34,824 nucleotides of DNA from Deltaproteobacteria bacterium (GTDB lineage Bacteria; Desulfobacterota; DSM-4660; Desulfatiglandales; HGW-15). The stretch lies in the NCBI GenBank assembly GCA_016931115.1, contig JAFGFM010000022.1, forward strand, positions 1 to 34,824, given 5' to 3'. A program made the position numbers and the translations under genes. The notes under the pieces were generated by a model. It was not told the DNA's origin and searched no databases. It saw only the letters and a list, made by a program, of their open reading frames with translations. The first letter of the stretch is position 1. Each line of letters opens with the position of its first letter. Positions 18,394 through 33,044 of the stretch are shown in pieces.

Positions 18394-18452
18394 TATATTT
18401 TTTAGATTAGGAGTAAATATTTATGATGTAACTGGAGGAGTAGAATTTGCAG

Positions 18453-18538
18453 GTTGGGTTAAGTGAAGCAACCCAACGATTTTTAAGAAATATTACCTTC
18501 TCAGTCATCGATTGAAAATATGTTGGGTTTTACCCAAG
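18453..18538. repeat. GTTGGGTT inverted-repeat element, copy 1
   Basis: GTTGGGTT (18453-18460) and AACCCAAC (18470-18477) form a hairpin with AAGTGAAGC in the loop, followed by GATTTTTAAGAA and, 45 bases further, TGTTGGGTTTTACCCAA. A second copy with the same opening lies just past the toxin gene. Confidence 0.75.
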
Positions 18539-18634: not shown

Positions 18635-18865
18635 ATGAAAACAGTAGCTGTAAGTGAACTGAGAGAAAATTTTATGTCTTTTATTAAAAAGGTAAAGGCA
18701 GGTGAAAATTTTATTGTAACATCAAGAGGCCATGAAGTGGCGAAACTTGTACCAGTGGAGAACAAAAAACAGAGAGCAAAAGAAAGGCTTAAAGATCTTC
18801 AAAAGACAGCGTATGTAGGAGATGTGCTTTCCTCTGTTAATGAAGAGTGGGAGGCCTTGAAATGA
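18635..18865 (+). CDS. Antitoxin, Phd/YefM family
   Basis: A 76-aa antitoxin. The N-terminal DNA-binding fold reads MKTVAVSELRENFMSFIKKV, then GENFIVTSRGHEVAKLVPV, which is the Phd/YefM pattern; the charged C-terminal tail would wrap the toxin. AAGGAG precedes the ATG. It overlaps the toxin gene by four bases (ATGA), typical of translational coupling. The pair is probably autoregulated through the operator over its promoter. Confidence 0.9.
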   Translation: MKTVAVSELRENFMSFIKKVKAGENFIVTSRGHEVAKLVPVENKKQRAKERLKDLQKTAYVGDVLSSVNEEWEALK

Positions 18866-19257
18866 TTGTTGCTGATACCCATATTATAATCTGGGACGCA
18901 TTATCTCCTGAAAAATTATCAAAAAAGGCAAAGGCTGCTATTTTGGAGGCGAATGGAAACGATGGGATTATATTCTGTGATATCTCCCTCTGGGAAATTT
19001 CCATGTTGATGAATCGAAACAGGGTAAAAGTAGATGTCTCATACAAAGAATTCATAAATCTGTTATTCAATTCTAATAATTACATTTTACAGGGCATTGA
19101 TCCCGATATAGCTGATCTCTCATCAAAAATATTTAAAAACACGGAAAATGATCCTGCGGATAAGCTGATAGCCGCCACCGCAGTCGTTAAAAAGGCAAGG
19201 CTCGTAACAGCAGATCGGACAATGCGATCTTCATCTGAAGTTACTACTATATGGTAG
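18862..19257 (+). CDS. vapC: PIN-domain toxin, VapC family ribonuclease
   Basis: A 131-aa PIN-domain toxin, predicted metal-dependent RNase. All four acidic positions of the family are present: D5 (VADTH), E45 (SLWEISML), D100 (DPADKLIAATA) and D118 (TADR), so the protein looks intact and active. The start at 18862 overlaps the antitoxin stop; a five-residue longer frame has no support. Vap-type toxins usually cut tRNA or rRNA (family knowledge); the target here is unknown. The gene is followed directly by an inverted-repeat element that may act as its terminator. Confidence 0.92.
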   Translation: MIVADTHIIIWDALSPEKLSKKAKAAILEANGNDGIIFCDISLWEISMLMNRNRVKVDVSYKEFINLLFNSNNYILQGIDPDIADLSSKIFKNTENDPADKLIAATAVVKKARLVTADRTMRSSSEVTTIW

Positions 19258-19373
19258 GTTGGGTTAAGCGAAGCAACCCAACGATTTTAAAGAAGTATTT
19301 CAAAATTACTCGACAGTATTTTTTTCTTAAAGCAACAAGTAGTAAGGATGTTGGGTTTTAAACCCAACCTAAC
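19256..19373. repeat. GTTGGGTT inverted-repeat element, copy 2
   Basis: GTTGGGTT (19258-19265) and AACCCAAC (19275-19282) repeat the hairpin of copy 1 in the same orientation. The element closes with the near-perfect palindrome GTTGGGTTTTAAACCCAAC (19350-19368). Copies 1 and 2 bracket the toxin-antitoxin operon. The stem begins at the toxin stop codon. Confidence 0.75.
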
Positions 19374-19575: not shown

Positions 19576-20343
19576 TTAAACCGCCTTAACCAGCCTGTCA
19601 GGCCCGAAAGCCTCCTTAGGGTACACCTTTGTAAACTCAGGCACAGTAACAGGGTTTGCATAGTTTCTGCCCGGCCTGTAATCTGCCCTTTCTTCTGGCC
19701 TGTATTCAAGCCGTTTTATCTTCCAGTTACCATTATCATTGATAAAGGCAATTTCGCACTGGCCTGCTTCCCACCACCTGAAGATACCTTCACCCTGAAG
19801 CCTGGCCATCATTACGAGAGAAGAGTCCAGGGCCATTGGATGCCCGGCCTGTATGGAATATGGAAACATCGCCTTCGCACTCTTCTGATCCGGAGTCACA
19901 TCAACTGTCTCCTTTTGTGAAACCGCATCAGCAGCATAACCCGGTGCATGGTCTAAAGTCTTACCTGTCATACCTGCGCTGAAATATTTGCAGTAGAGGC
20001 GGCTTATGCCTGTATCTCTACCACTGAACAGGCCGCCATTAAAGATAACCTCTGCATCCTGGCTGAAGAGCGCTACAGCATCCCTGTACATGCCATTATC
20101 AAGAAGACCTTTATAATTATCATACAGTCTCCTGATCTTTTTTTCTTCTTCCATAAGAGCAACCTGCCTTGAAAGGCTATCCACCCTCCCCTTCAGCTCT
20201 TTATCACTGTTGACAACAGATTTACCGAGTACCGGCACAGCCGCAGCTGCAACCGCAGAGATACCTGCGCCAACCTTCCATATAAATGAGCGGCGGCCTC
20301 TGTCAGCCTGCATATCATCTTTTTTAGACTTTAATATACTCAT
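19576..20343 (-). CDS. Tat-exported NTF2/SnoaL-like protein, copy 1
   Basis: A 255-aa protein. The N-terminus has a twin-arginine signal, GRRSFIWKVGAG followed by an alanine-rich hydrophobic run, so it should be exported folded. A short coiled-coil (KELKGRVDSLSRQVALMEEE) leads into an NTF2/SnoaL-type fold: LYDNYKGLLDNGMYRDAVALF, then DAEVIFNGGLFSG, and RWWEAGQCEIAFINDNGNWK as the late strands. The tail has DYRPGRNYANPV and GPDRLV. The start at 20343 follows AAAGGAG. It begins one base after the MoaF-like gene. The family includes small-molecule-binding proteins, isomerases and dehydratases; its substrate is unknown. A paralogue lies at 23527-24300. Confidence 0.82.
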   Translation of the reverse strand: MSILKSKKDDMQADRGRRSFIWKVGAGISAVAAAAVPVLGKSVVNSDKELKGRVDSLSRQVALMEEEKKIRRLYDNYKGLLDNGMYRDAVALFSQDAEVIFNGGLFSGRDTGISRLYCKYFSAGMTGKTLDHAPGYAADAVSQKETVDVTPDQKSAKAMFPYSIQAGHPMALDSSLVMMARLQGEGIFRWWEAGQCEIAFINDNGNWKIKRLEYRPEERADYRPGRNYANPVTVPEFTKVYPKEAFGPDRLVKAV

Positions 20344-20344
20344 C

Positions 20345-22138
20345 TTATACTCCTTTCCTGATCTTGGGGCCAAAGTACTTCTTTACATCATAGCAGCCTA
20401 TATGACGCCCTATTGCGCCTGTAAGACTCAGGTTAACACCCATTGCGCCTCCGGAGAATCCAAAACCGCAGTCATGGGATATCTTGGTATTAATAAGCTC
20501 TATCATCTCTGCGCCGTTACAGGCCTCTTCATTCTGGACAAATATATAGACTTCATCACGGAGCTTCACATAGATACATGGTGAACACCATTGAGCCCCC
20601 ATTGTCTGGTTATCAGTAAAGATCGTCCATGACATGGAGTGTGGAGAGGCATAAAGATGCATTGAGGTCATCTGGTCAGAATATGACCATGAGAAGGCAT
20701 GTCCCACCAGCTCATCGGTAAATTCATGACGCACATACCCCGGCGCCGCAATCCCTTCCATCTCACATACACCAAAAATGGCCTTGTAGGTCGTTTCATT
20801 GCCAAAATACTTTGTGCCCATATGTGAATGGATGCATGTTGTAAGACCGTTTGTGAGGTCAACCGCCACAGCCACACTGGCCCTTGGTTTACTGTCGGTA
20901 AGGAGGTGGGCAAACCATGCAAGTTTTTCATCCCCTTCATATGCGCGGTAGGGCTCTTCATGCCATTTGTTTTCACCCTCTTCCATATACCTGAGCTTAA
21001 ACTTTTCAGGAAATTCATAATGGCGCACCGGGCCTCCATCATCATATCTCAGGACAAATTTCTTCCCGACAAGTATATCGGAGAATTGCATATTGTGCCC
21101 TGCCATCTGCTGGATGGCATCACCCCTGCCTCCAAATGCATTTGTACTCTTCAGTGCAGCCTGATGAACCTCTTCATCAGACATATACTTGAAGGTCCTT
21201 ATCGGGCGATATGTCATCCTCTGCCATTTCCCCGGTATTTCAGGGTCACCTAGGGCCTGGAAAGCCATGCCCTTTTTACCGTGCTCATTAAAGGGCTCAA
21301 GGTATGCGATCTGGCCCACAACCTTGCCTTCTCCCCTGAACATGTAATATTCAAGCTCATTCTTTTCATTAAAACCAAGACGCACACCGGCCTGTGTACA
21401 GGTGAAGAGATCCGCTACAAAGGAGGTGAATATGCCTGAGAATTCACATTCGGTCTTGTCGTGTATAAACGTGTTGTCATTTACAAGCACATAATCGGAA
21501 GGACTTACATAGCTTAAGTCATCTGCCTGGCGGGTAAGATCAACAAAGTTGGTGTTTGCCACAGAGGCATAATACTCAATCACTTCATGGCCTGTATCCT
21601 GTTTCCAGTAGAGCCCCTTGCCCTCTATCCTGTTTGTAAGGTGATGAAGATCTTTCGGGGCCTCCTGCCCTGCCACATCGATATAGCCAAAATATACCTG
21701 GCGCTGTACTTCCCTGTCATCAACGACTATTGGAGGAGGTGGTGTGGGGCCGCCACCCAGCGTCGGCTCCTGCCTTCCGGTGGAGAATCCGACCTCTATT
21801 ACAGTAACAAGATTGGTATCCTGATCAATATATACATTATAGCCCCTCTGTACCTCAGGGATCATGTGTGAGAAGAAAACCATCTGCTTCTGTGTGAGTG
21901 CACCGTAACCTGCATTGATCTTTTTCTCCCCATTCTCAGATAATGTAAGTCTGTTTTTGTCCTCAAACTTGTATTCAAGTACAGGGCCATTCTGGGTGAT
22001 GACCTTGATAGATTTGCCCTTGAGCACATCCGATAACTCGGATTTACATTTTGGGCCAGCCTCGGTTACCTTGAGCGCCTTGCCAATCTGATCCTTTGTG
22101 AGTTTTGTGTACTTGAATCGATGCATCGGAATGTTCAT
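20345..22138 (-). CDS. Double MoaF-domain protein, copy 1
   Basis: A 597-aa cytoplasmic protein without signal peptide. It looks like two MoaF units in tandem. Small MoaF-N-like domains start near residues 37 (SDVLKGKSIKV with GPVLEYKF) and 353 (SDILVGKKFVLRYDDGGPV), each ending in a DLDTNLVT/DLTNGLTT strand. MoaF-C-like domains start near 165 (HHLTNRIEGKGLYW) and 470 (RHEFTDELVGHAFSW). MoaF is a calycin-like family named from Klebsiella and linked to monoamine or organoautotrophic growth, without a settled activity. A proline linker (PTPPPP, 131-136) separates the first two domains. AAAGGAG precedes the ATG. The downstream partner is the Tat NTF2-like protein; both are duplicated at 23527-26113. 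Confidence 0.72.
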   Translation of the reverse strand: MNIPMHRFKYTKLTKDQIGKALKVTEAGPKCKSELSDVLKGKSIKVITQNGPVLEYKFEDKNRLTLSENGEKKINAGYGALTQKQMVFFSHMIPEVQRGYNVYIDQDTNLVTVIEVGFSTGRQEPTLGGGPTPPPPIVVDDREVQRQVYFGYIDVAGQEAPKDLHHLTNRIEGKGLYWKQDTGHEVIEYYASVANTNFVDLTRQADDLSYVSPSDYVLVNDNTFIHDKTECEFSGIFTSFVADLFTCTQAGVRLGFNEKNELEYYMFRGEGKVVGQIAYLEPFNEHGKKGMAFQALGDPEIPGKWQRMTYRPIRTFKYMSDEEVHQAALKSTNAFGGRGDAIQQMAGHNMQFSDILVGKKFVLRYDDGGPVRHYEFPEKFKLRYMEEGENKWHEEPYRAYEGDEKLAWFAHLLTDSKPRASVAVAVDLTNGLTTCIHSHMGTKYFGNETTYKAIFGVCEMEGIAAPGYVRHEFTDELVGHAFSWSYSDQMTSMHLYASPHSMSWTIFTDNQTMGAQWCSPCIYVKLRDEVYIFVQNEEACNGAEMIELINTKISHDCGFGFSGGAMGVNLSLTGAIGRHIGCYDVKKYFGPKIRKGV

Positions 22139-22219
22139 TTTTACTCTCCTTTTAAAATAGTTTTGTTTATCTCTGTTTTATTAATCCTCTATCTTTTTTA
22201 AGGTCTTTATAAATCAATA

Positions 22220-23398
22220 CTACTCTTTTTCCCCTGACCTCAGATCGACTATGCTGAAATATGCCTTTTTGGGTTTCATCTCACGGTCAAAGAGCAAAGG
22301 ATAATCGGCCCTTCCCGGGATAGGGAAATTATTTTTCCAGGAAATGCCGTCATGCAGCCCCCAGAAGGTCACCCTGCTGATCTTGTCTTTGTGTTTGTTA
22401 AAAATTATAAAAATATCGCGATATCTCTTTGCCAGTTCGTCTGATATTGATTCAGGCAGGCCCTCCTTGTATGGGTTCATCTCATCATTTCTTTCATGTC
22501 TGATACCGATATCGGCTGATGGTGTATTCCATGGGCTTGGCAGAACCGATACATCCAGCTCTGTAAACATGACCTTAACACCCAGTTCTGAAAACTGGCT
22601 TATGGTATTTTCTATCTCGATCAGTTCCGGGAATTTCATGTCCCAGTGACCCTGTACGCCAACTGCATCTATCCTTAACCCCTTCTCCTTTAGTTTTTTA
22701 ACTATCCTGATTGCCCCTGCACGCTTTTCAGGTATCACAAGGTTATAGTCATTATAATATAGTTCAGCATCTGGATCAGCCAGGTGGGCATACTCAAATG
22801 CCTTTTCTATAAATTCATCCCCTGCTATTTTATAAAAACCCGATTCCCTCATGGAGCCATCTTCATTTAATGCCTCATTAACCACATCCCATCCATGGAC
22901 CTTGCCCTTATACCTCCCTGCGACCGTAAAGATATGATCCTTTATCCTGTTAAGAAGGGTCTCCTTATCAACCTGATCATTTGATCCCTCCTTTGTAAAC
23001 ACACCCCGCCCCAGCTGGCTGTGCCATACCAGTGCATGGCCTATCAGCTTGATCCTGTTTGCCTGTGCAAAGTCTGCGATCTTATCTGCCCGTTCAAACC
23101 TGTATTGATCCAGCACAGGGTGAAGGGAGCCCCACTTCATCTCATTTTCAGGTGTGATGGTGCTGAAATGGCTCTTTATCAGTTCAGCGGAAACCGGGTT
23201 ATCAAAAAGCCCTGGAAAGATCGCAGCACCGATAAGAAAATTATCCTTGTAATAATCCTTAAGTCCTTTCTCTATATCCACGCTCTCCGCAGGTTTCGGA
23301 TTACAGGATAGAAAGAGTAAGATAAAAAGAGGGCTAATATACGGTATTACATGTTTAAGACTTTTCATGCAGCCTGATTTAGTTCTGAATCTGATCAT
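22220..23398 (-). CDS. GH10 endo-1,4-beta-xylanase, lipoprotein
   Basis: A 392-aa enzyme that would cut xylan chains outside the cytoplasm. It ends its signal peptide at a lipobox LLFLSC (Cys32), so it should be membrane-anchored. The GH10 barrel is complete: ENEMKWGSLHP, HALVWHSQ, acid/base E175 in WDVVNEAL, YYNDYN, nucleophile E280 in FTELDVS, and the late FWGLHDGISW. An in-frame ATG at 23368 gives a more usual signal-peptide length, but only the first ATG has an AAGGCAGG-like ribosome site; either is possible. It sits between the two MoaF/NTF2 cassettes on the same strand. Confidence 0.93.
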   Translation of the reverse strand: MIRFRTKSGCMKSLKHVIPYISPLFILLFLSCNPKPAESVDIEKGLKDYYKDNFLIGAAIFPGLFDNPVSAELIKSHFSTITPENEMKWGSLHPVLDQYRFERADKIADFAQANRIKLIGHALVWHSQLGRGVFTKEGSNDQVDKETLLNRIKDHIFTVAGRYKGKVHGWDVVNEALNEDGSMRESGFYKIAGDEFIEKAFEYAHLADPDAELYYNDYNLVIPEKRAGAIRIVKKLKEKGLRIDAVGVQGHWDMKFPELIEIENTISQFSELGVKVMFTELDVSVLPSPWNTPSADIGIRHERNDEMNPYKEGLPESISDELAKRYRDIFIIFNKHKDKISRVTFWGLHDGISWKNNFPIPGRADYPLLFDREMKPKKAYFSIVDLRSGEKE

Positions 23399-23461
23399 TC
23401 TTAAAAACCTGCCTTAATTTAACTTTATTTGTGAGAATTGCAATCACCCATAGAAAGGTTG

Positions 23462-23503
23462 TTAACCGCGGATATTCGCTCAGGAGAGGAATACCGCGGT
23501 TAA
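23462..23503. other. Long stem-loop between NTF2-like gene and xylanase gene
   Basis: TTAACCGCGG (23462-23471) and CCGCGGTTAA (23494-23503) are perfect 10-base arms. TATTC and GAATA extend the stem to about 15 bp with one bulged A. There is no T-run on either side, so it is more likely an RNA-processing or stability element, or an attenuator, than a simple terminator. Confidence 0.6.
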
Positions 23504-23526
23504 ATATTACCGGAACCTTACATTCA

Positions 23527-24300
23527 TTAAACCTGCACAGGGACCAGAATCTTATCCGGGCCATTCGGCTCCTCAGGGTAAGCCTTTGCAAAGGGTACTG
23601 CTGATACAGGCGTGGAGTATGTCTTTCCCGGCCTGTAATCTCTCTTTGCAAGGGTATGATATTCCAGCCTCTTGATTTTCCAGGCCCCACCTGCTGCCTC
23701 TTTTACACATGAGATATGGCATGTTCCGCCTTCCCACCACCTCATGACCCCTCCGCCATGCAGACGCGCCATACTTACCAATACGGAATCGGAAGTCAGA
23801 GGGACACCGATCTGCATTGAATATGAAAACCGCCCATTTGCTGAACCACGGTCATCAGATATTTGCACATGATCCTGCGCTGACTCACAGGCTGTCTCAA
23901 ACCCTGGTGCAGGTGAAATCCTTTTACCTGTCATCCCTGACCTGAAGAGGCTGCAATAAAGACGTCTTACACCGGTCTCTTTTCCTTTGTACACACCACT
24001 GTTAAATATTACCTCGCCATCATTTGAAAAAAGTTCTACAAGGTCTTCATATGAACCCCTCTCCAGTAAAGACTCATAGGTGCGATAAAGGGCATGGATT
24101 GACTTTTCATCTTCAAGGCTTGCGACCCTGCTATTTAAACGCTCCATCTCTGATTCCAGCCCCTTATCTTTTTTAAAGACCGGCATGGCGATGGCCGGGA
24201 CAGCAGTAGCAAGCAGCGCTGACACAGCAGCCCCAGCCTTCCAGATAAAAGACCTGCGGCCAGCATTCGGCTGATCACTGGTATTTATTGTAGTATCCAT
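23527..24300 (-). CDS. Tat-exported NTF2/SnoaL-like protein, copy 2
   Basis: A 257-aa paralogue of the protein at 19576-20343. It keeps the twin-arginine motif GRRSFIWKAGAA, here with a clear AIA cleavage site before MPVFKK. A coiled-coil (ESEMERLNSRVASLEDEK) and an NTF2-like domain follow: LYRTYESLLERGSYEDLVELF, DGEVIFNSGVYKG, GMTGKRISPAPGFE and RWWEGGTCHISCV, with tail DYRPGKTYSTPVSAVPF and GPDKIL. The start at 24300 is one base after the MoaF-like stop and uses an AAAGGAG that lies within that gene. The conserved RWWE and PGF(A/E) positions in both copies are candidate pocket residues. Confidence 0.82.
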   Translation of the reverse strand: MDTTINTSDQPNAGRRSFIWKAGAAVSALLATAVPAIAMPVFKKDKGLESEMERLNSRVASLEDEKSIHALYRTYESLLERGSYEDLVELFSNDGEVIFNSGVYKGKETGVRRLYCSLFRSGMTGKRISPAPGFETACESAQDHVQISDDRGSANGRFSYSMQIGVPLTSDSVLVSMARLHGGGVMRWWEGGTCHISCVKEAAGGAWKIKRLEYHTLAKRDYRPGKTYSTPVSAVPFAKAYPEEPNGPDKILVPVQV

Positions 24301-24301
24301 A

Positions 24302-26113
24302 TTATGCTCCTTTCCTTTTTGCATTGGGGCCAAAAAACTCTTTAACATTATACTGCCCGAGGTCACGCGCAATAGCGCCGATTACACCAAGGTTGATCCC
24401 GTCTCTGCCGCCGTGGAAACCAAACCCATCTGCATGCATGGTCTTATTATTTTCAATAATACATGTTTCAGCGCCGTTACATGCCTCTTCAACAAGGTCA
24501 AATATATACACCCCGTCCCTGAGCTTCACATAAAGGGCAGGCGCACACCACTGAATACCAAGGGTCTGATCCTGCATATAGATTGTCCATGCCGAGGAAT
24601 GGGGGGTGGTATAAAGATGCATTGAGGTCATATTGTCAGAATATGTCCTGGTAAACCCGCATCCGACCAGTTCATCTGTAAATTCATGACGCATGTATTT
24701 TGCAGACTGTAAACCTTCCATCTCTGCAATGCCAAAGAAGGCCTCATAAACCACTTCATCCCCGTAATACTCCGAACCCACCTTTGAATATATGCAGGTA
24801 GTAAGCCCGTTTGTAAGGTCAAGTGCGATCTTTACACTTGTGGGTGGTTTAACACCTGTAAGCATGTGGGCAAAGAATAGAAGATTTTCATCAGCCTCAA
24901 AGGCCCTGTATGTCTCTTTCTGCCATTTTGAATCGCCTTCCTTTTTCCATTCAAGGTTATAGGCGTCTGATACCCTGTAATTAAAAACCGGGCCGCGATC
25001 AAACCTGAGAGTAAATTCCTTACCATTAAGCAGCCCGCTGTATGGAAGCGTATTGCCTCCCATCATACCGGCCTGGGCCTGGGGTGTGTCGGGGTTATCT
25101 GTAAAGGTCACTGTCTTTGTTTCAGCGATCTTATTTATCTCATCCTGTGAGATATATTTAAGATTTCTGGCCGGGCGATAAACAATTCTATCGGCGCCTT
25201 TAGCTGGTTTTGGTGCAGGTGCAGCAGCAGCGCCTGGTTTAGGGGCACCAAAACCCATATTTATCTTTTCACCATGTTCATCAAATGGTTGAAGGGATGA
25301 AAGCTGGCCCACAACCTTGCCTTTACCTCTGAATATATAGTATTCAAGCTCATCTTTTTCATTAAATCCTAGCCTCATTCCCACCTGTGTTTCTGAGAAG
25401 AGGTCAACAGCATACATGGTGATTATGCCTGAAAATTCACACTCGGTTCTGTCATAGATAAACATGTTATCATTAACAAGTATGTAGTCTGATGTTGCGC
25501 AATAGCTCAAATCATCCACATGCCTTGTCAGTTCAACGAAATTCGTAGTACATACAGAGGCATAGAATTCAAGGGTTTCAATACCTGTATCCTGTTTCCA
25601 GTACATACCTTTGCCCTGTATCCTGTTTGTAAGGTGGTGCAGTTTTTCAGGAGCAGCCTTTCCAGCCACCTCTACATAACCATAAAAGACCTGGCGCACT
25701 GCCTCTCTGTCATCCAGTACTATTCCTCCGCCCATGCCGCCCTGCTTTATTCCGCTTGAAAGAGAGACATCCATTACTGTAACAAGGTTGGTATCAAGAT
25801 CGTAAAATACATTATAACCCCTCTGTTCATCCGGGATCATATGAGAAAATAAAACCATCTGTTTGAGTGTAAGAGCGCCATAACCGGTCTTAATCTTTTT
25901 TCCGCCGTTTTCAGAGATGGTAAGCTCTTTTTTATCCTTGAAACTGTATTCAAGGACAGGTCCATCCTTTATAATAATCTTTAAGGACTTGCCTGAAAGA
26001 ATATCTGAAAATTGAGATGCACACTGAGGGCCTGTTTCAGTTACCTTGAGTTTTTTACCTATTTCTTCCTTTGTCAGTTTTGTGTACTTGAATCGGTGCA
26101 TTGGTATGTTCAT
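24302..26113 (-). CDS. Double MoaF-domain protein, copy 2
   Basis: A 603-aa paralogue of the protein at 20345-22138 with the same N-terminus (MNIPMHRFKYTKLTK) and the same four-domain order. The middle linker differs: an Ala-Pro run (PGAAAAPAPKPAKG) replaces the shorter segment of copy 1, while the PTPPPP linker of copy 1 is absent. Conserved features include FSGI(I/F)T, GVRLGFNEK or GMRLGFNEK with DELEYYIFRG, and GLTTCIYS. GGAGGAG precedes the ATG. It lies 41 bases after the symporter gene, so it probably belongs to that operon. A role in handling a ligand imported or released at this locus is an inference. Confidence 0.72.
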   Translation of the reverse strand: MNIPMHRFKYTKLTKEEIGKKLKVTETGPQCASQFSDILSGKSLKIIIKDGPVLEYSFKDKKELTISENGGKKIKTGYGALTLKQMVLFSHMIPDEQRGYNVFYDLDTNLVTVMDVSLSSGIKQGGMGGGIVLDDREAVRQVFYGYVEVAGKAAPEKLHHLTNRIQGKGMYWKQDTGIETLEFYASVCTTNFVELTRHVDDLSYCATSDYILVNDNMFIYDRTECEFSGIITMYAVDLFSETQVGMRLGFNEKDELEYYIFRGKGKVVGQLSSLQPFDEHGEKINMGFGAPKPGAAAAPAPKPAKGADRIVYRPARNLKYISQDEINKIAETKTVTFTDNPDTPQAQAGMMGGNTLPYSGLLNGKEFTLRFDRGPVFNYRVSDAYNLEWKKEGDSKWQKETYRAFEADENLLFFAHMLTGVKPPTSVKIALDLTNGLTTCIYSKVGSEYYGDEVVYEAFFGIAEMEGLQSAKYMRHEFTDELVGCGFTRTYSDNMTSMHLYTTPHSSAWTIYMQDQTLGIQWCAPALYVKLRDGVYIFDLVEEACNGAETCIIENNKTMHADGFGFHGGRDGINLGVIGAIARDLGQYNVKEFFGPNAKRKGA

Positions 26114-26154: not shown

Positions 26155-27579
26155 TTAAATCTCAGACCTTCGTTTTGAAAGGTCTTCCGCTATCTTGACC
26201 ATAACGCTGCTTTTCAATGGATAAAAGAGCATGACCAACGCTCCAAGTATTCCGATTACAGCAGGATAGAAGCTCATAAGCATTCTGATTCCGAAGATGG
26301 TATCCGGTTCGGTAGCCGCTGAGGAATCAAAGCCATGAAACGCCAGGATCCAGCCGAAAATTGCCCCACCAAGCGCAAGCCCGACTTTTAAAGCAAACAG
26401 GGAGGCGGCCATAATCAGCCCGGTGTTTCGTCTTTCGAATTTCCATTCCCCATAATCAGCTGTGTCGGTATATATAGCCCACTGTAATACCGATACGATT
26501 CCGATAAAGAAGGATATCGCGGAATTGAGCAGCAGTATAGGAATAACATTATGAGGCTGAAGAAAATAGAATCCACAGCATAGTATGGCGCTTGTCATCA
26601 GTGATCCGGAATAGGCCTGTTTCTTGTCAAGCTTATCAACAAAAAACTTTGCCAGAATAGCTCCGACCAATGTCGCAAGCGTGCTGACCGGTAGAAATGT
26701 GGATGTGAATACCGCAGGCGTAAGCGCCAGGTTTTTTCCGAACAGATTCAACGATTGTTCGCGCACATAATAGTCGAAATAGTATGTTGTTGATGACCCC
26801 CGCATCACAATGAATGTTAACTGGAAAATTGTCGCAATGCCTATAAAAAGCCAGGGTTTGTTGCTCAGAAGATTTTTCAGATCTTTGACAATATCGCCTT
26901 TTTGGCCTTCGGGGGGATGGACTCTTTCTTTTGTAGTGAAAAATGTGATTGCGAATAATACAACAGCTATTATACCAAACAACCCGACTGTCATTTGCCA
27001 GCCTCGCTGCTCATTTCCGCTGCCGAAGTATGAGACTAGACCCAATGCTGAGAGGCCGATTATAAGCTGGCCGATAAATGCCAAAACAAAGCGGTATTGG
27101 GATACATTTGTTCTCTCGTCGGGATCCGGGGTTATGACTCCCATCAACGATGCATATGGAACATTGATAGCAGTATATAATATCATTAAAAGGGAATATG
27201 AGATGTAAGCGTAAACCAGCTTCCAGGTGCTGCTGAAATCAGGCGTTGTAAAAGATAATACGCCGCCAATAGTCAAGGGAAGCCCAAAGAAAATAAGATA
27301 TGGCCGGTATTTTCCCCATCTGGATTTTGTTCCATCAGCTATTACTCCCATAACAGGGTCGGTTACAGCATCAAAAATCCTAGTCACCAGAATCATCGTG
27401 CCAAAGGCTGCCGCTGAAATACCAAAAACATTGGTATAGAACATCGGGAGAAACACGATAAAAATCTGAAAATAGAAATTTGAAGCCATATCTCCAAGGC
27501 CATAGCCTATTTTTTCTTTTACGGATAATCTTGTACCTGACTCCTGAATTGAAATAGAACTATTTTTCGAATTAGTCAT
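26155..27579 (-). CDS. Sugar:cation symporter, GPH family (MFS)
   Basis: A 474-aa, 12-TM transporter. GPH-family features are clear: EKIGYGLGDMASNFYFQ at the start, RIFDAVTDPVMGVIADGTKSR with KYRPYLIF after TM2-3, and NVPYASLMGVITPDP with the following TNVSQYR. Members import oligosaccharides, xylosides or uronides with Na+ or H+. Its position next to a xylanase and pectin-type genes fits xylo- or galacturono-oligosaccharide import. It is the first gene of the leftward operon and is divergent from the kinase operon; AGGTGA lies just before the ATG. Confidence 0.92.
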   Translation of the reverse strand: MTNSKNSSISIQESGTRLSVKEKIGYGLGDMASNFYFQIFIVFLPMFYTNVFGISAAAFGTMILVTRIFDAVTDPVMGVIADGTKSRWGKYRPYLIFFGLPLTIGGVLSFTTPDFSSTWKLVYAYISYSLLMILYTAINVPYASLMGVITPDPDERTNVSQYRFVLAFIGQLIIGLSALGLVSYFGSGNEQRGWQMTVGLFGIIAVVLFAITFFTTKERVHPPEGQKGDIVKDLKNLLSNKPWLFIGIATIFQLTFIVMRGSSTTYYFDYYVREQSLNLFGKNLALTPAVFTSTFLPVSTLATLVGAILAKFFVDKLDKKQAYSGSLMTSAILCCGFYFLQPHNVIPILLLNSAISFFIGIVSVLQWAIYTDTADYGEWKFERRNTGLIMAASLFALKVGLALGGAIFGWILAFHGFDSSAATEPDTIFGIRMLMSFYPAVIGILGALVMLFYPLKSSVMVKIAEDLSKRRSEI

Positions 27580-27750: not shown

Positions 27751-28929
27751 ATGAACGCCCTGATTGAGGAGTTTGACAGAAATTTCCCAGGAATTACCCT
27801 TGAAACGGCCTTTTGCCCCTATCGAATCTGCCCTGTCGGTGCACACTGTGACCACCAGCATGGTAAAATCCTCGGGATGGCAATAGACAAAGGGATTACC
27901 ATTGCCTATTCCCCATCAGAAGATGGCATTATTCAAATTGTCTCAAGAAATTTTAAAGATAAAATCCGATTTGATGTTACCAGATCCCTTGAAAAGATGA
28001 ATGACTGGGCAGATTATTTGCGCGGGGCAGTGGCCGCCCTGTCAGAAAAATATCCTGTCACAAAGGGCATTATGGGTGTTATAGAAGGGTCCCTTCCAAT
28101 AGGCGGGCTTTCTTCATCTGCGGCAGTAATCATTGCATTTCTACAGGCCATGTGCAGGGTAAACGGGCTTAAACTTTCTGAGAAAGAGGTCATTGACACA
28201 GCACTCCGGGCAGAAAACCGGTTTGTGGGTGTAAATGTTGGCACACTTGACCAGAGCTGCGTGGTGTACTCACGTAAGGATAAACTTTTATACCTGGATA
28301 CACTTGATAACAGATACATGCTGTTACCTTTAAACCCTGCCATGAAACCTTATGAGATAGCCATCTTTTTCAGCGGGGTGGAGAGGACCCTTGCAGGCAG
28401 CAGATACAATATGCGCGTGGATGAGATCAAATCTGCCGCCTATGCACTTAAGGCCTATGCAGGTATGGATTATGGCAGGTTTGAGGATAGCAGATTAAGG
28501 GAGGTGCCTTTAGGGATATACAATAAATATAGAGACAGGCTCCCTGTTAACTTTCAGAAACGGGCTGAACATTATTATACTGAATTTGCACGGGTAGAAA
28601 GAGGCGCAGAGGCATGGGCAAGAGGTGATATAGAGACCTTTGGCAAATACATTTTTGAAAGCTGCTATAGCAGCATCTATAACTATGAGACAGGGTCTGA
28701 TGAACTCAAGGCCCTCTATGAGATCACTATGAGGACAGAAGGCATATATGGTGGCCGTTTTTCTGGCGCAGGGTTCAAGGGGTGTTTTATGGCTCTTATT
28801 GACCCGGCCTACAGGTCAGCAATTGAGCAGAAGGTGAGTAGTGAGTACCTGAAGCTCTTTCCTGAGCTTAAGGGCAGATACTCCACCCATTTCTGTAAAA
28901 GTGCGGACGGGGTAGGTGCCATATCATGA
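27751..28929 (+). CDS. Galacturonokinase-like GHMP sugar kinase
   Basis: A 392-aa cytoplasmic kinase. The N-terminal signature CPYRICPVGAHCDHQ (22-36) replaces the galactokinase GRxNLIGEHTDY form. From recall it closely matches plant galacturonic acid kinase, as do the stretches KRAEHYYTE, GAEAWARGDIETFGKYI, SSIYNYETGSDEL and RFSGAGFKGC. The ATP-binding GHMP loop is PIGGLSSSAAV (116-126) and the catalytic Asp is D167 in GTLDQS. The predicted product is galacturonate-1-phosphate or a related hexuronate phosphate; galactose cannot be excluded. GGAGAG lies eight bases before the ATG. The gene overlaps the nucleotidyltransferase by four bases. Confidence 0.8.
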   Translation: MNALIEEFDRNFPGITLETAFCPYRICPVGAHCDHQHGKILGMAIDKGITIAYSPSEDGIIQIVSRNFKDKIRFDVTRSLEKMNDWADYLRGAVAALSEKYPVTKGIMGVIEGSLPIGGLSSSAAVIIAFLQAMCRVNGLKLSEKEVIDTALRAENRFVGVNVGTLDQSCVVYSRKDKLLYLDTLDNRYMLLPLNPAMKPYEIAIFFSGVERTLAGSRYNMRVDEIKSAAYALKAYAGMDYGRFEDSRLREVPLGIYNKYRDRLPVNFQKRAEHYYTEFARVERGAEAWARGDIETFGKYIFESCYSSIYNYETGSDELKALYEITMRTEGIYGGRFSGAGFKGCFMALIDPAYRSAIEQKVSSEYLKLFPELKGRYSTHFCKSADGVGAIS

Positions 28930-29681
28930 AATGCATCGTACTTGCAGCAGGGTACGCGACAAGACTCTACCCCCTTACAGAAAATTTTCCAAAGCCCCTT
29001 CTGGATGTTAATGGCAAGGCCATACTGGACTGGCTTCTTACTGATATCGATTCGAGCGGGATGATTGATGAATATGCTGTTGTATCCAACCACAGATACA
29101 TAGATCATTTTAAAACCTGGGCAGAAAGACTGAGGCTTAATGCCCCTGTAAGTGTACTGGATGATGGTTCTGTTACCAACGAGACCCGGCTTGGCGCTGT
29201 AAAGGATATAGAGTTTGCAATTGATGCTACAGGCGCCTGTGATGACATCATGATAATTGCAGGGGATAACCTGCTGGATTTTTCCCTTTCAGGGTTTATG
29301 CAGTATTTTTTTAAAAAAGAGGCGACCTCTATAATGAGGTACTTTGAACCTGATGCTGCGCGCTGTTCAAAGACCGGTGTACTGACCCTGACAGAGGGTG
29401 AGAGGGTTACAGCAATGAAAGAAAAACCTCAAAACCCAGAACCAGACTGGTGCACCCCGCCATTTTATATATACCACCGGGATGATCTACCCCTTATAAA
29501 AAAGGCAATTAAAGAAAACTGCAATACTGATGCGCCAGGGAATCTTCTTTCCTATATTTGCAGGCACACGAAGGTTTATGCGATGGAGATGCCGGGCAAA
29601 CGATATGATATTGGCAGCCTTGATAGCTATAACAGGGTAAGAGAGAAATACAGAGGCATAGAAATTGGCCATGGCATCTGA
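28926..29681 (+). CDS. Sugar-phosphate nucleotidyltransferase
   Basis: A 251-aa enzyme of the NTP_transferase type, joining a sugar-1-phosphate to a nucleotide. The nucleotide loop is LAAGYATRLYPLT followed by FPKPLLDVNGK; a metal-binding Asp lies in IIAGDNLLDFSL, and later EKPQNP and PGKRYDIGSLDSY are typical of the fold. It starts inside the ATGA overlap with the kinase gene, with no separate ribosome site, so the two are coupled. Acting after the kinase it would make an NDP-uronate or NDP-sugar. Which nucleotide is used cannot be read from the sequence. Confidence 0.86.
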   Translation: MKCIVLAAGYATRLYPLTENFPKPLLDVNGKAILDWLLTDIDSSGMIDEYAVVSNHRYIDHFKTWAERLRLNAPVSVLDDGSVTNETRLGAVKDIEFAIDATGACDDIMIIAGDNLLDFSLSGFMQYFFKKEATSIMRYFEPDAARCSKTGVLTLTEGERVTAMKEKPQNPEPDWCTPPFYIYHRDDLPLIKKAIKENCNTDAPGNLLSYICRHTKVYAMEMPGKRYDIGSLDSYNRVREKYRGIEIGHGI

Positions 29682-30996
29682 TCACATAATAACCGACTAT
29701 GGTGCAAATGGTAGCCTGACTGTAAACAATGCGCCTGCCATACAGTCTGCAATAGATGCATGTTTTAAAAACGGCGGGGGCAGGGTTATTGTGCCTGCCG
29801 GTAGAGTATTCATGACAGGCTCTTTAATCCTTAAATCCAATGTGGAATTGCACCTTGAGCAGGGGGCGATTCTTAAGGCAAGTAAAAACAAGTCTGATTA
29901 CAAAGGATTCAGGGAGCTTACCTACATGGATACAGCGCTGAAGGCCCCCGCATATGTAAACTGTGAGTATGATGGCAGACCAAAACAGTATTTTCTTTAT
30001 GCCTTTGACTCACACAATATATCCATTACAGGAAAAGGCATTATTGATGGTTCAGGTGAGATACATCAGGGAGAGGTATTCAAATATTATATTGAGGGTG
30101 ACAGCTACCCCAGGATGCCCATGCTGTTTATGGAGGGGATTAACAATCTTCACATCATGGATGTAACACTCAGGAACAGCGGTTTCTGGACCGTGCACAT
30201 GGCCGGGTGCAGGGATGTGCTTATAGATGGCATATGCATAAAAAATGATTTAAGGATGATGAATAGTGACGGTATAGACCCTGATCACTGCAAAAATGTG
30301 GTCATAAGAGATTGTGACATAGAATCTGCTGATGACTGCATTGTGTTCAAGGCCACAGGGGCATTTAAAAAGTATGGGCCATGCGAAAACATTACTGTAT
30401 CAGGGTGCAGGCTTACCTCAACGAGCGCGGCTATCAAGTTTGGTACAGAGAGCGAGTCTGATATGAGAAACATCAGCGTGAAGGACTGCGTGATAAGCCG
30501 GACAAACAGGGGCATATCCCTTCAGCTCAGGGACAGTGCAAACATGGAGAATATCTCATTTAGTAATATCCGCATAGAGACTAAACGTTTTTCAGAACAC
30601 TGGTGGGGAGAGGGAGAACCCATTGCCATCACCGCTGTTCCACGTAAAGAGGGTATACGCCCAGGCAAGGTTAAAAATATCAGGTTTAAAAATATTGAGT
30701 GTATTAGCGAGAATGGTATATTCATACACGGTAATGATGAGACCTGTGTTGAGGATATCTTTTTTGAGGATATAAAAATACGTCTTGAAAACAGCAGTAA
30801 ATGGGAAAAGGCTGATTATGATCTAAGACCATGTGCTGGCAAAGGGAAGGTAAAGGCAAAGATGAGCGGGGCATATTTAAGGTTCGCAGAGAATATAAGG
30901 TTTAAGGGGTTTGAGATTAAGGCGGATGATGATATGAAGCAATATCTGGCAGGGGTTTATGATATTGAAGCTTGCAAAGGTGTTGAATGGGAATAA
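29671..30996 (+). CDS. GH28-like beta-helix glycosidase, cytoplasmic
   Basis: A 441-aa right-handed beta-helix protein. It begins with ITDYGANGSLTVNNAPAIQSA, as in polygalacturonases and related enzymes. Two catalytic motifs are visible: NSDGIDPD (about 198-205) and ADDCIVFK (D221, D222). The third, GHG, is replaced by TSTSAAIKFGTES; the fourth may be NRGISLQLRD. This pattern occurs in GH28 relatives that act on substituted or unsaturated galacturonides. No signal peptide is present, so it would act on imported oligosaccharides. A TTG at 29665 is eight bases from GAGG and is an alternative start. It overlaps the genes on both sides. Confidence 0.82.
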   Translation: MASDHIITDYGANGSLTVNNAPAIQSAIDACFKNGGGRVIVPAGRVFMTGSLILKSNVELHLEQGAILKASKNKSDYKGFRELTYMDTALKAPAYVNCEYDGRPKQYFLYAFDSHNISITGKGIIDGSGEIHQGEVFKYYIEGDSYPRMPMLFMEGINNLHIMDVTLRNSGFWTVHMAGCRDVLIDGICIKNDLRMMNSDGIDPDHCKNVVIRDCDIESADDCIVFKATGAFKKYGPCENITVSGCRLTSTSAAIKFGTESESDMRNISVKDCVISRTNRGISLQLRDSANMENISFSNIRIETKRFSEHWWGEGEPIAITAVPRKEGIRPGKVKNIRFKNIECISENGIFIHGNDETCVEDIFFEDIKIRLENSSKWEKADYDLRPCAGKGKVKAKMSGAYLRFAENIRFKGFEIKADDDMKQYLAGVYDIEACKGVEWE

Positions 30997-33044
30997 TAAA
31001 CCGAAAAGAACTAATAGAGTTTCATAATGTAATTCTAAACAAACCTGAAACAGCATCCCCACTTACTGTCGGGAATGGCGGGTTTGCATTCACATTTGAT
31101 ATCACCGGCATGCAGACCCTTTACACGGAATATCTTGATCAATTCCCATTATGCACCATGGCTGAATGGGGCTGGCACATTACACCAGCAGAAAACCAGA
31201 TGGCTCTTTATACCCATGATGACCTTATAGAGGATGAGTATGATTTCAGTGATAGAAAGGTACACTACCCTGTAACTAAAAAACCGGGCAATGAAAAGGT
31301 TTATGACTGGCTCCGTGAAAATCCGCACAGATATAACCTTGCGCGTATCGGCCTTTTTTACAAAAGAAGAGAAATCAAATCGAAAGAGTTATCTAACATC
31401 AGGCAGGAACTCGCCCTTTATGATGGCTTATGTAACAGCCATTTTACCCTTGATAATAAACAATGTGATGTAACCACATTTGTCCATTCAGAGAGTGACA
31501 CCCTGTGCTTAAAAATAGAATCTGAACTGCTTATGAATGGACTAACACCCTGTATCCTCTTCCCATACCCTTCATGGCGAATCCACGGTTCAGACTGGTC
31601 ATCTTCAGCACAGGAGAGGCACAAGCTAGAAACATTATCTAAGGATAAAAACACCCTTGTTATGAAAAGGGTCATAGATAACACAGAGCTCTTTGTTCGA
31701 ATCCATATAAAAGGCGGTGAGTGTGCCTGCAATGTTAAAGATAAATGCATAAAGATCATTCCCGATGCGGATCAATTGGAGATTGTAATCACCTTTGCAA
31801 GAACAATAAATAGCAGGCCATGTGATCTTGAAACATCTATCTCAGAGACAAAAAAATACTGGAATGCATTCTGGGAAAAGGGGGGCATAATACGGCTCAG
31901 AAACAGTAAAGATAAAAGGGGTGTCGAGCTTGAAAGAAGGATCATCCTCTCAATGTATCTGTTGGCGGCTCAATGTACAGGTAATATGCCCCCGCAGGAA
32001 ACAGGGCTATCTGTAAACAGCTGGTATGGGAAATTTCATCTGGAGATGCATCTGTGGCACCAGGCATTTCTCCCCTTGTGGAACAGGGGGCACCTCCTGA
32101 AAAAGAGCCTTAACTGGTATAAAAACCACCTTGCGAATGCAGTAATGAATGCGGCTAAAAATGGCTTCAAGGGTGCAAGGTGGCCCAAGATGGTGGATGA
32201 GAGAGGTATTGATTCACCTTCGCCCATTGCACCTCTACTTGTATGGCAGCAGCCACACATCATCTACATGCTGGAACTCTGTTATCGTGAGAACCCTTCT
32301 GATGCGTTCCTGCATGAATATGAAGAGATAGTCACAAAAACAGCCAAATTCATGACAGACTACCCGGTACAGAATAAGATGGATAACAGGTATCATCTTA
32401 TGCCGCCACTCATACCTGCACAGGAGTGTCATGCTCCTGAGACAACAAAGGACCCTGCATTTGAGTTGGAGTATTTCGTTTCTGGGCTAACGATTGCGGC
32501 AGAGTGGTATAAAAGGCTTAAAAAGGATATCCCGAAGAAATGGATCAATGTAATGAAAAACATGGCCCTGAGCCCTGTACATGATGGCAAGTATCAGGCA
32601 CATGCAAATATTAATGATACATTTGTTTCGGCAGCAGTTGATCACCCATCCATGCTCTGTGCCTTTGGATTCATTGACAGTGGAAGGATAGATAAAGAAA
32701 GAATGCTTTCCACACTTACGTCAGTAATAAGCTCATGGGATTATGAATCTTTATGGGGATGGGATTTTGCAGTAATGGCCATGACAGCAGCAAGGCTTGG
32801 CTTGAATGATATGGCTCTTGACCTGCTTCTTTATGACACGCCTAAAAACCGCTATGTAAAAAGCGGCAATAACGCACAGGGTGAAAGAAAGGATCTGCCA
32901 TTATATCTGCCAGGTAATGGGTCACTGCTGCTTGCTATTGCCCTGCTTGCAGCGGGTGTTGAAGGTAAACAGAATGGAGTCACAGGCTTTCCTCACGATG
33001 GCACATGGTGTGTTGAACATGAGGGTATCAGGCCGCTTCCGTGA
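30987..33044 (+). CDS. Six-hairpin (alpha/alpha)6 glycoside hydrolase or phosphorylase, GH65-like
   Basis: A 685-aa cytoplasmic enzyme without signal peptide. An N-terminal beta-sandwich (PLTVGNGGFAFTFDITGMQT) is followed by an (alpha/alpha)6-type catalytic region with NSWYGKFHLEMHLWHQ (E353), RWPKMVDERGIDSPSPIAP, WQQPHIIYMLELCYR, and a late WGWDFAVMAMTAARLG and LYLPGNGSLLLA. The order of these motifs is like GH65/GH95-type proteins. GH65 includes phosphorylases that release sugar-1-phosphate, which the upstream nucleotidyltransferase could use directly, but no phosphate site can be confirmed. The start overlaps the GH28-like gene by 10 bases. The 3' end overlaps the convergent DUF937 gene. 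Confidence 0.72.
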   Translation: MGIINRKELIEFHNVILNKPETASPLTVGNGGFAFTFDITGMQTLYTEYLDQFPLCTMAEWGWHITPAENQMALYTHDDLIEDEYDFSDRKVHYPVTKKPGNEKVYDWLRENPHRYNLARIGLFYKRREIKSKELSNIRQELALYDGLCNSHFTLDNKQCDVTTFVHSESDTLCLKIESELLMNGLTPCILFPYPSWRIHGSDWSSSAQERHKLETLSKDKNTLVMKRVIDNTELFVRIHIKGGECACNVKDKCIKIIPDADQLEIVITFARTINSRPCDLETSISETKKYWNAFWEKGGIIRLRNSKDKRGVELERRIILSMYLLAAQCTGNMPPQETGLSVNSWYGKFHLEMHLWHQAFLPLWNRGHLLKKSLNWYKNHLANAVMNAAKNGFKGARWPKMVDERGIDSPSPIAPLLVWQQPHIIYMLELCYRENPSDAFLHEYEEIVTKTAKFMTDYPVQNKMDNRYHLMPPLIPAQECHAPETTKDPAFELEYFVSGLTIAAEWYKRLKKDIPKKWINVMKNMALSPVHDGKYQAHANINDTFVSAAVDHPSMLCAFGFIDSGRIDKERMLSTLTSVISSWDYESLWGWDFAVMAMTAARLGLNDMALDLLLYDTPKNRYVKSGNNAQGERKDLPLYLPGNGSLLLAIALLAAGVEGKQNGVTGFPHDGTWCVEHEGIRPLP

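Follow-up and report, generated by a model that had tools for sequence, protein, structure and literature searches.

MoaF proteins take their name from a regulatory gene cluster and, to our knowledge, no reaction has been assigned to them. Phenolic acid decarboxylases use an intermediate comparable to the quinone-methide step of LdpA. LdpA is an NTF2-family enzyme that splits formaldehyde off lignin diarylpropanes, for which a quinone-methide step has been proposed (PMC12997858); together with PcfL it represents the gamma-formaldehyde lyases of lignin dimers in sphingomonads (PDB 8abt-8abw; PMC12997858, PMC11323797). In the structure 8abu, NaLdpA carries the H97Q mutation and was crystallised with substrate, so that His97 stands out as a key residue. 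Proteins that lack a signal of their own can pass through the Tat pathway along with an escort, as has been established for HybOC and PaoABC (PMC4273604).

The window analysed here (the whole stretch of DNA, 34,824 nucleotides) contains a minus-strand gene series that, read from 27579 bp to 19576 bp, encodes the following proteins.

26155..27579, minus strand: GPH (glycoside-pentoside-hexuronide:cation) symporter (TIGR00792, 1e-114)
24302..26113, minus strand: MoaF2a, double-MoaF protein, 603 aa (Pfam MoaF 8.5e-21, in three stretches)
23527..24300, minus strand: Tat-NTF2a, SnoaL_4/NTF2 protein, 257 aa (SnoaL_4 3e-11; RRSFIWK at residue 15)
22220..23398, minus strand: GH10 xylanase, probable lipoprotein (Pfam GH10 2e-96)
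20345..22138, minus strand: MoaF2b, double-MoaF protein, 597 aa (Pfam MoaF 2.5e-20, MoaF_C 5.7e-8)
19576..20343, minus strand: Tat-NTF2b, SnoaL_4/NTF2 protein, 255 aa (SnoaL_4 1.4e-10; RRSFIWK at residue 17; aligned to 8abu)

This is the gene content given by the original prediction: two pairs of a MoaF-MoaF gene and a Tat-NTF2 gene with a GH10 gene between them and a GPH gene upstream, all on the minus strand. The GPH symporter gene is likely the first gene of the local operon. The true starts of the two NTF2 genes are the ATG codons at 24300 bp and 20343 bp, each 1 nt past the stop of the preceding MoaF2 gene, with AAGGAG directly upstream of both and inside the 3′-end of MoaF2. Longer NTF2 ORFs beginning at TTG were rejected as artefacts.

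Analysis of MoaF2a revealed two units, each of MoaF_N plus MoaF_C, at about residues 1-300 and 310-600, and no signal peptide. The two halves of MoaF2 are homologous (hhalign E 1.4e-20). MoaF_N scored 74.3 and 72.8 bits against a curated cut-off of 23.3, and MoaF_C scored 32.9 bits in MoaF2b and 20.6 bits in MoaF2a, the latter just under the cut-off of 22.1. The C-terminal half of MoaF2 matched the Burkholderia cenocepacia MoaF structure 4q51 both by profile (1.2e-9) and by fold (Z 25.4 over 239 residues), and the fold match covered both the MoaF_N and the MoaF_C domain. The next folds for the MoaF_N barrel were 5hal, a small uncharacterised Burkholderia protein (Z 13.6), and the phenolic acid decarboxylases (Z about 8-12). 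The AlphaFold models were of middling confidence (mean pLDDT 64 and 66; 65.9 for MoaF2). Polar residues of MoaF2, for example H159, T162, D175, E179, H476, H499 and E542, were very strongly conserved across phyla.

The nearest solved relatives of Tat-NTF2 by sequence were NaLdpA and SpLdpA, which were also among the best by fold; the profile match of Tat-NTF2a to LdpA 8abt had a value of 4.4e-47. In agreement with the prediction, the two proteins have small-molecule-binding folds. In a tree, the paired NTF2s formed one clade (100/100) on a long stem (0.82) with the unpaired relatives outside it, and this clade lay in one grouping with LdpA-like unpaired proteins. The position of LdpA His97 is occupied by Cys in Tat-NTF2a and by Ala in Tat-NTF2b. 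Across the paired NTF2s this column held I, P, C, D, A, N or a gap and, wherever it was readable, never His, while His97 was kept in LdpA and in all ten unpaired relatives read from the same genomes; the column was read from two alignments, and one paired protein ended at a contig edge before reaching it. The loss of His97 ruled out Tat-NTF2 as a catalytically ordinary LdpA; a protein that has lost this residue may still be catalytic. Tat-NTF2 retains many residues shared with LdpA (RLY, WE, WKI), and the paired NTF2s carry a conserved motif of their own, MARLHGEG. An RRSF twin-arginine signal was present in all 18 paired NTF2s, and TatC was found in each of the 15 hosts tested; among unpaired relatives with a readable N-terminus, three look cytosolic and three lipoprotein-like. 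The paired clade, its RRSF signal and its lack of His97 thus show pairing, Tat gain and His97 loss coinciding on a single branch.

When about 85,000 species genomes were scanned with two peptide patterns, 25 MoaF2 loci came to light, a number that is a lower bound because the scan relied on no further patterns. These loci belong to Acidobacteria, Bacteroidetes and Gammaproteobacteria, to one planctomycete and to a deltaproteobacterium. The pair, a rare unit, recurs in the same five groups in the constant order MoaF2 then Tat-NTF2, and the Tat-NTF2 gene lies directly 3′ of MoaF2 in most loci. MoaF2 matches came from 4 of the 395 genomes of the window's own phylum; three belong to the same family and the fourth match was weak and partial. 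When the 18 host genomes were searched from both sides, all full-length paired-type NTF2 genes (18/18, defined by 310 bits or more) adjoined MoaF2, as did two partial paired-type genes (G006 contig C110 and G427 contig C337), and the weaker relatives, at 292 bits or less, did not. The distance from stop to start was exactly 1 nt in 10 of the 18 pairs compared, with a range of −13 to +29. The pairing is far above chance expectation, and the 18/18 adjacency backs the prediction that strict pairing reflects a dedicated joint function; the genome search found strict NTF2-to-MoaF2 co-occurrence and neither rare co-occurrence nor a known reaction, in a wider context that varies. From the side of MoaF2, 28 full-length genes lie clear of contig ends, and 8 of these had no adjoining Tat-NTF2, including an early-diverging group of five, and these solitary genes indicate that MoaF2 can work alone, presumably in the cytoplasm. 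Additionally, some MoaF2 genes have other SnoaL proteins nearby that carry Sec or lipoprotein signals. No double-MoaF protein was found in the plasmid records searched, where the NTF2 query returned only LdpA-like matches of 33-34% identity from two sphingomonads.

The two cassettes of the window had been described as copies of an identical gene pair, which did not hold: BLASTP revealed 57% identity between MoaF2a and MoaF2b, and Tat-NTF2a and Tat-NTF2b were 46% identical. In the MoaF2 tree the upstream copy, MoaF2a, grouped with a planctomycete protein to which it is 78% identical, and the downstream copy, MoaF2b, clustered with three gammaproteobacterial proteins; the matching copy of the sister species G001 stood beside each. 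These positions, which contradict the idea of one duplicated cassette, indicate that the two cassettes are old and distinct, and judging from the sequences they appear to be distantly related, separate versions that did not arise by tandem duplication. A recent local duplication was ruled out, as each copy is nearer to proteins of another phylum than to its counterpart. The distances of MoaF2 and NTF2 correlated (r 0.53, permutation p 0.0002), which is what one would expect of genes that mostly move as a pair; some branches of the two trees disagree. On G006 contig C110 (15618-16049), a Tat-NTF2 gene beside an intact MoaF2 gene was broken by a stop and frameshifts, so that one copy of the pair is decaying there.

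The genes encoding GH10 and GPH were found in the same places in G001, where the proteins are 88% and 59% identical respectively, and the operon order GPH-MoaF2-NTF2-GH10-MoaF2-NTF2 is common to these two species of the genus. Neither gene lies beside the pair in Acidobacteria, Bacteroidetes, Gammaproteobacteria, the planctomycete or the related genus G006. GH10 and GPH are thus genus-level neighbours outside the conserved module, and the proposal of a system built around a xylanase and a symporter is not supported, as the linkage was seen only in two species. All-against-all clustering of the neighbouring genes revealed no third conserved operon gene, and no common transporter, regulator or efflux partner recurs beside the pair. 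A larger conserved operon was rejected, as the widest families were sporadic: a secreted protein without Pfam hit in 4 genomes, tannase in 3 and carboxylesterase in 2. A DUF169 protein with a Tat-like start was encoded downstream of the cassette in a planctomycete (L037, 14381-15241) and in an acidobacterium (L039, 3330-4220). In the window itself, a divergent plus-strand group (27751-33044) encodes a galactokinase-like GHMP kinase, a nucleotidyltransferase-like protein, a GH28 pectinase and a DUF5703-like protein, a content that points to this organism as a pectin user. Two stretches of the window, 18451-18494 and 19256-19299, carry a 44-nt repeat that contains an inverted repeat (GGTTGGGTTAAGnGAAGCAACCCAAC). 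The two copies flank a gene for a VapC-like PIN protein (18847-19257). The genome has the core of this repeat 8 times, and the repeat is like a REP or mobile hairpin element.

Tannase/feruloyl esterase genes were found in 17 of the 18 host genomes, with 1-12 matches each. Among 41 relatives searched, the three genomes with MoaF2 had 7-10 such matches each, and the genes were present in 3 of the 38 MoaF2-negative ones (Fisher p about 0.002, the three MoaF2 genomes being close kin). On G001 contig C77, a MoaF2 gene lies close behind genes for a tannase and two secreted proteins in the same direction, in a probable operon. The window's own genome encodes an operon-like group on G000 contig C99 (L015, 6689-14942) consisting of a tannase/feruloyl esterase, two secreted proteins without Pfam hit, a lipoprotein SnoaL_4 protein and a MoaF2 remnant from which the middle is deleted, in the arrangement of G001 contig C77; a 686-aa protein with three SnoaL_4 domains adjoins it. 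Elsewhere in this deltaproteobacterial genome (L018, G000 contig C122, 16000-35000) lie genes for an AMP-ligase, a class III CoA-transferase, a SnoaL_4 protein and two large proteins, one of them confirmed as the Oxidored_FMN type; as far as its gene content goes, this cluster resembles a bile-acid-inducible (bai) operon. Lignostilbene dioxygenase was found in only 4 of the 18 hosts, apparently the gammaproteobacteria. It is absent from the other 14, and therefore the known aerobic route cannot apply there; on this ground the sphingomonad LdpA-LSD pathway was ruled out. In three gammaproteobacterial hosts (G424 contig C26, 35237-37364; G432 contig C361, 1049-4053; G430 contig C157, 3680-9219), the gene for an LdpA-like NTF2 protein is next to, or not far from, one of the lignostilbene dioxygenase family, the arrangement to be expected for an LdpA-LSD route for lignin dimers.

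The aromatic substrate that had been suggested is plausible in view of the kinship to LdpA, the PAD-like fold of MoaF_N and hosts rich in tannases/feruloyl esterases. As relatives of both folds act on para-hydroxyphenyl compounds and LdpA has its quinone-methide step, phenolics may be put forward as the substrate class, a fair guess from fold kinship and a genome-level correlation. Our preferred reading, which we hold tentatively, is that MoaF2 and Tat-NTF2 constitute a horizontally spread catabolic module for plant phenolics in which NTF2 escorts MoaF2 through Tat. The translationally coupled genes would yield the two proteins in similar amounts, and the coupling suggests that they form a complex. 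Tat-NTF2, with His97 lost and a Tat signal gained, would act mainly as escort or scaffold and would carry folded, signal-less MoaF2 through Tat. The working site is placed in the periplasm because the Tat signal sits on a cofactor-free fold and was gained on pairing with a signal-less partner. In that compartment MoaF2 would be the active component and NTF2 would have an escorting or helping role. Para-hydroxyphenyl compounds set free from lignin fragments or from phenolic esters of plants would be bound or converted by the MoaF barrels, and the chemistry would probably be of the acid-base, quinone-methide type and need no cofactor. That the two represent a new Tat co-export pair, in which a His-less, lignin-lyase-like NTF2 escorts a cofactor-free tandem-MoaF enzyme to the periplasm, is in itself rather doubtful; against co-export, the Sec/lipoprotein SnoaL proteins near some MoaF2 genes could not carry a partner through Tat.

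That the pair spans two membrane compartments, as the original prediction had it, need not follow, since a partner with no signal of its own can leave through Tat on an escort (PMC4273604). In the main alternative, which we hold about as tentatively as the preferred reading, Tat-NTF2 would be a periplasmic lyase or isomerase with a remodelled active site, whose product would be taken up and processed by MoaF2 in the cytoplasm, the genes being coupled for stoichiometry only. The missing signal peptide of MoaF2, its relatives without a Tat partner and the other exported SnoaL proteins beside MoaF2 in some hosts agree with this, and the LdpA-shared residues and MARLHGEG suggest that Tat-NTF2 may be an enzyme. 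However, no common transporter accompanies the pair, and the use of Tat by a cofactor-free fold is more easily explained by a folded complex. The loss of the catalytic His97, the small-molecule pockets of both folds and the unconserved neighbours would also suit a protective role, in which the two proteins are carriers without catalytic activity and shield the cell by sequestering toxic phenolics or quinone methides. We consider this unlikely, as the very strong conservation of MoaF2 polar residues across phyla is more typical of an enzyme and no regulator or efflux partner recurs.

Two further explanations concern the substrate, and we regard both as quite improbable. That the pair handles a group which the GH10 xylanase frees and the GPH symporter brings into the cell accords with the gene order kept in two species, and feruloylated arabinoxylan would connect the xylan and phenolic ideas; this xylan or uronate role is weakened by the distribution, as GH10 and GPH are absent beside the pair in the other groups and in G006. 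Non-aromatic or steroid-like plant or microbial compounds come into question because BaiE-like SnoaL_4 dehydratases and 25-phosphosteroid lyase share the two folds: BaiE structures were among the Foldseek matches of NTF2, 25-phosphosteroid lyase was a weak match of the MoaF barrel (Z 4.7), and the window's own genome has the separate CoA-transferase/Oxidored_FMN/SnoaL_4 cluster. Sequence searching with NTF2, however, returned LdpA at 4e-47 and not BaiE, and the host correlation is with tannases.

Since the partner of MoaF2 comes from a clade with known lignin-dimer chemistry, in genomes packed with tannases/feruloyl esterases, concrete substrates to test are at hand. If the co-export reading of the module is true, a first reaction could be assigned to the MoaF family, one that acts on plant phenolics in mostly anaerobic bacteria, and a co-exported pair would add a cofactor-free case to the Tat hitchhiker principle. 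With Tat gain, loss of the catalytic His and pairing with MoaF2 on one branch, this enzyme clade is a clear example of recruitment to a new role.

Full-text searches of the open-licence literature returned no description of a MoaF-SnoaL make-up, which is in line with the prediction that no system of this make-up had been described; the pair is built from two known families in a combination that is probably undescribed. Like the Tat hitchhiker complexes HybOC and PaoABC (PMC4273604), it consists of a subunit with a Tat signal and an adjacent gene for a signal-less partner, whereas the known complexes carry metal or redox cofactors and the MoaF2 and NTF2 folds are not known to need one. With the MoaF family (PF10703/PF17409; 4q51), each half of MoaF2 shares the MoaF_N barrel and MoaF_C, but 4q51 is a single unit of about 280 aa and MoaF2 has two tandem units in about 600 aa, and differs further in its strong cross-phylum conservation and its coupling to an exported partner. 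The phenolic acid decarboxylases (PadC/PDC) resemble the MoaF_N barrel over about 107 residues at about 10% identity; each is a single small enzyme that lacks both a MoaF_C domain and a partner. LdpA and PcfL share about 32% identity with Tat-NTF2 over about 180 residues; the dioxygenase partner of the LdpA-LSD route is missing in 14 of the 18 hosts of paired NTF2s, and the paired NTF2s differ from these lyases in that they are without His97, carry a Tat signal and the MARLHGEG segment, and always stand beside MoaF2.
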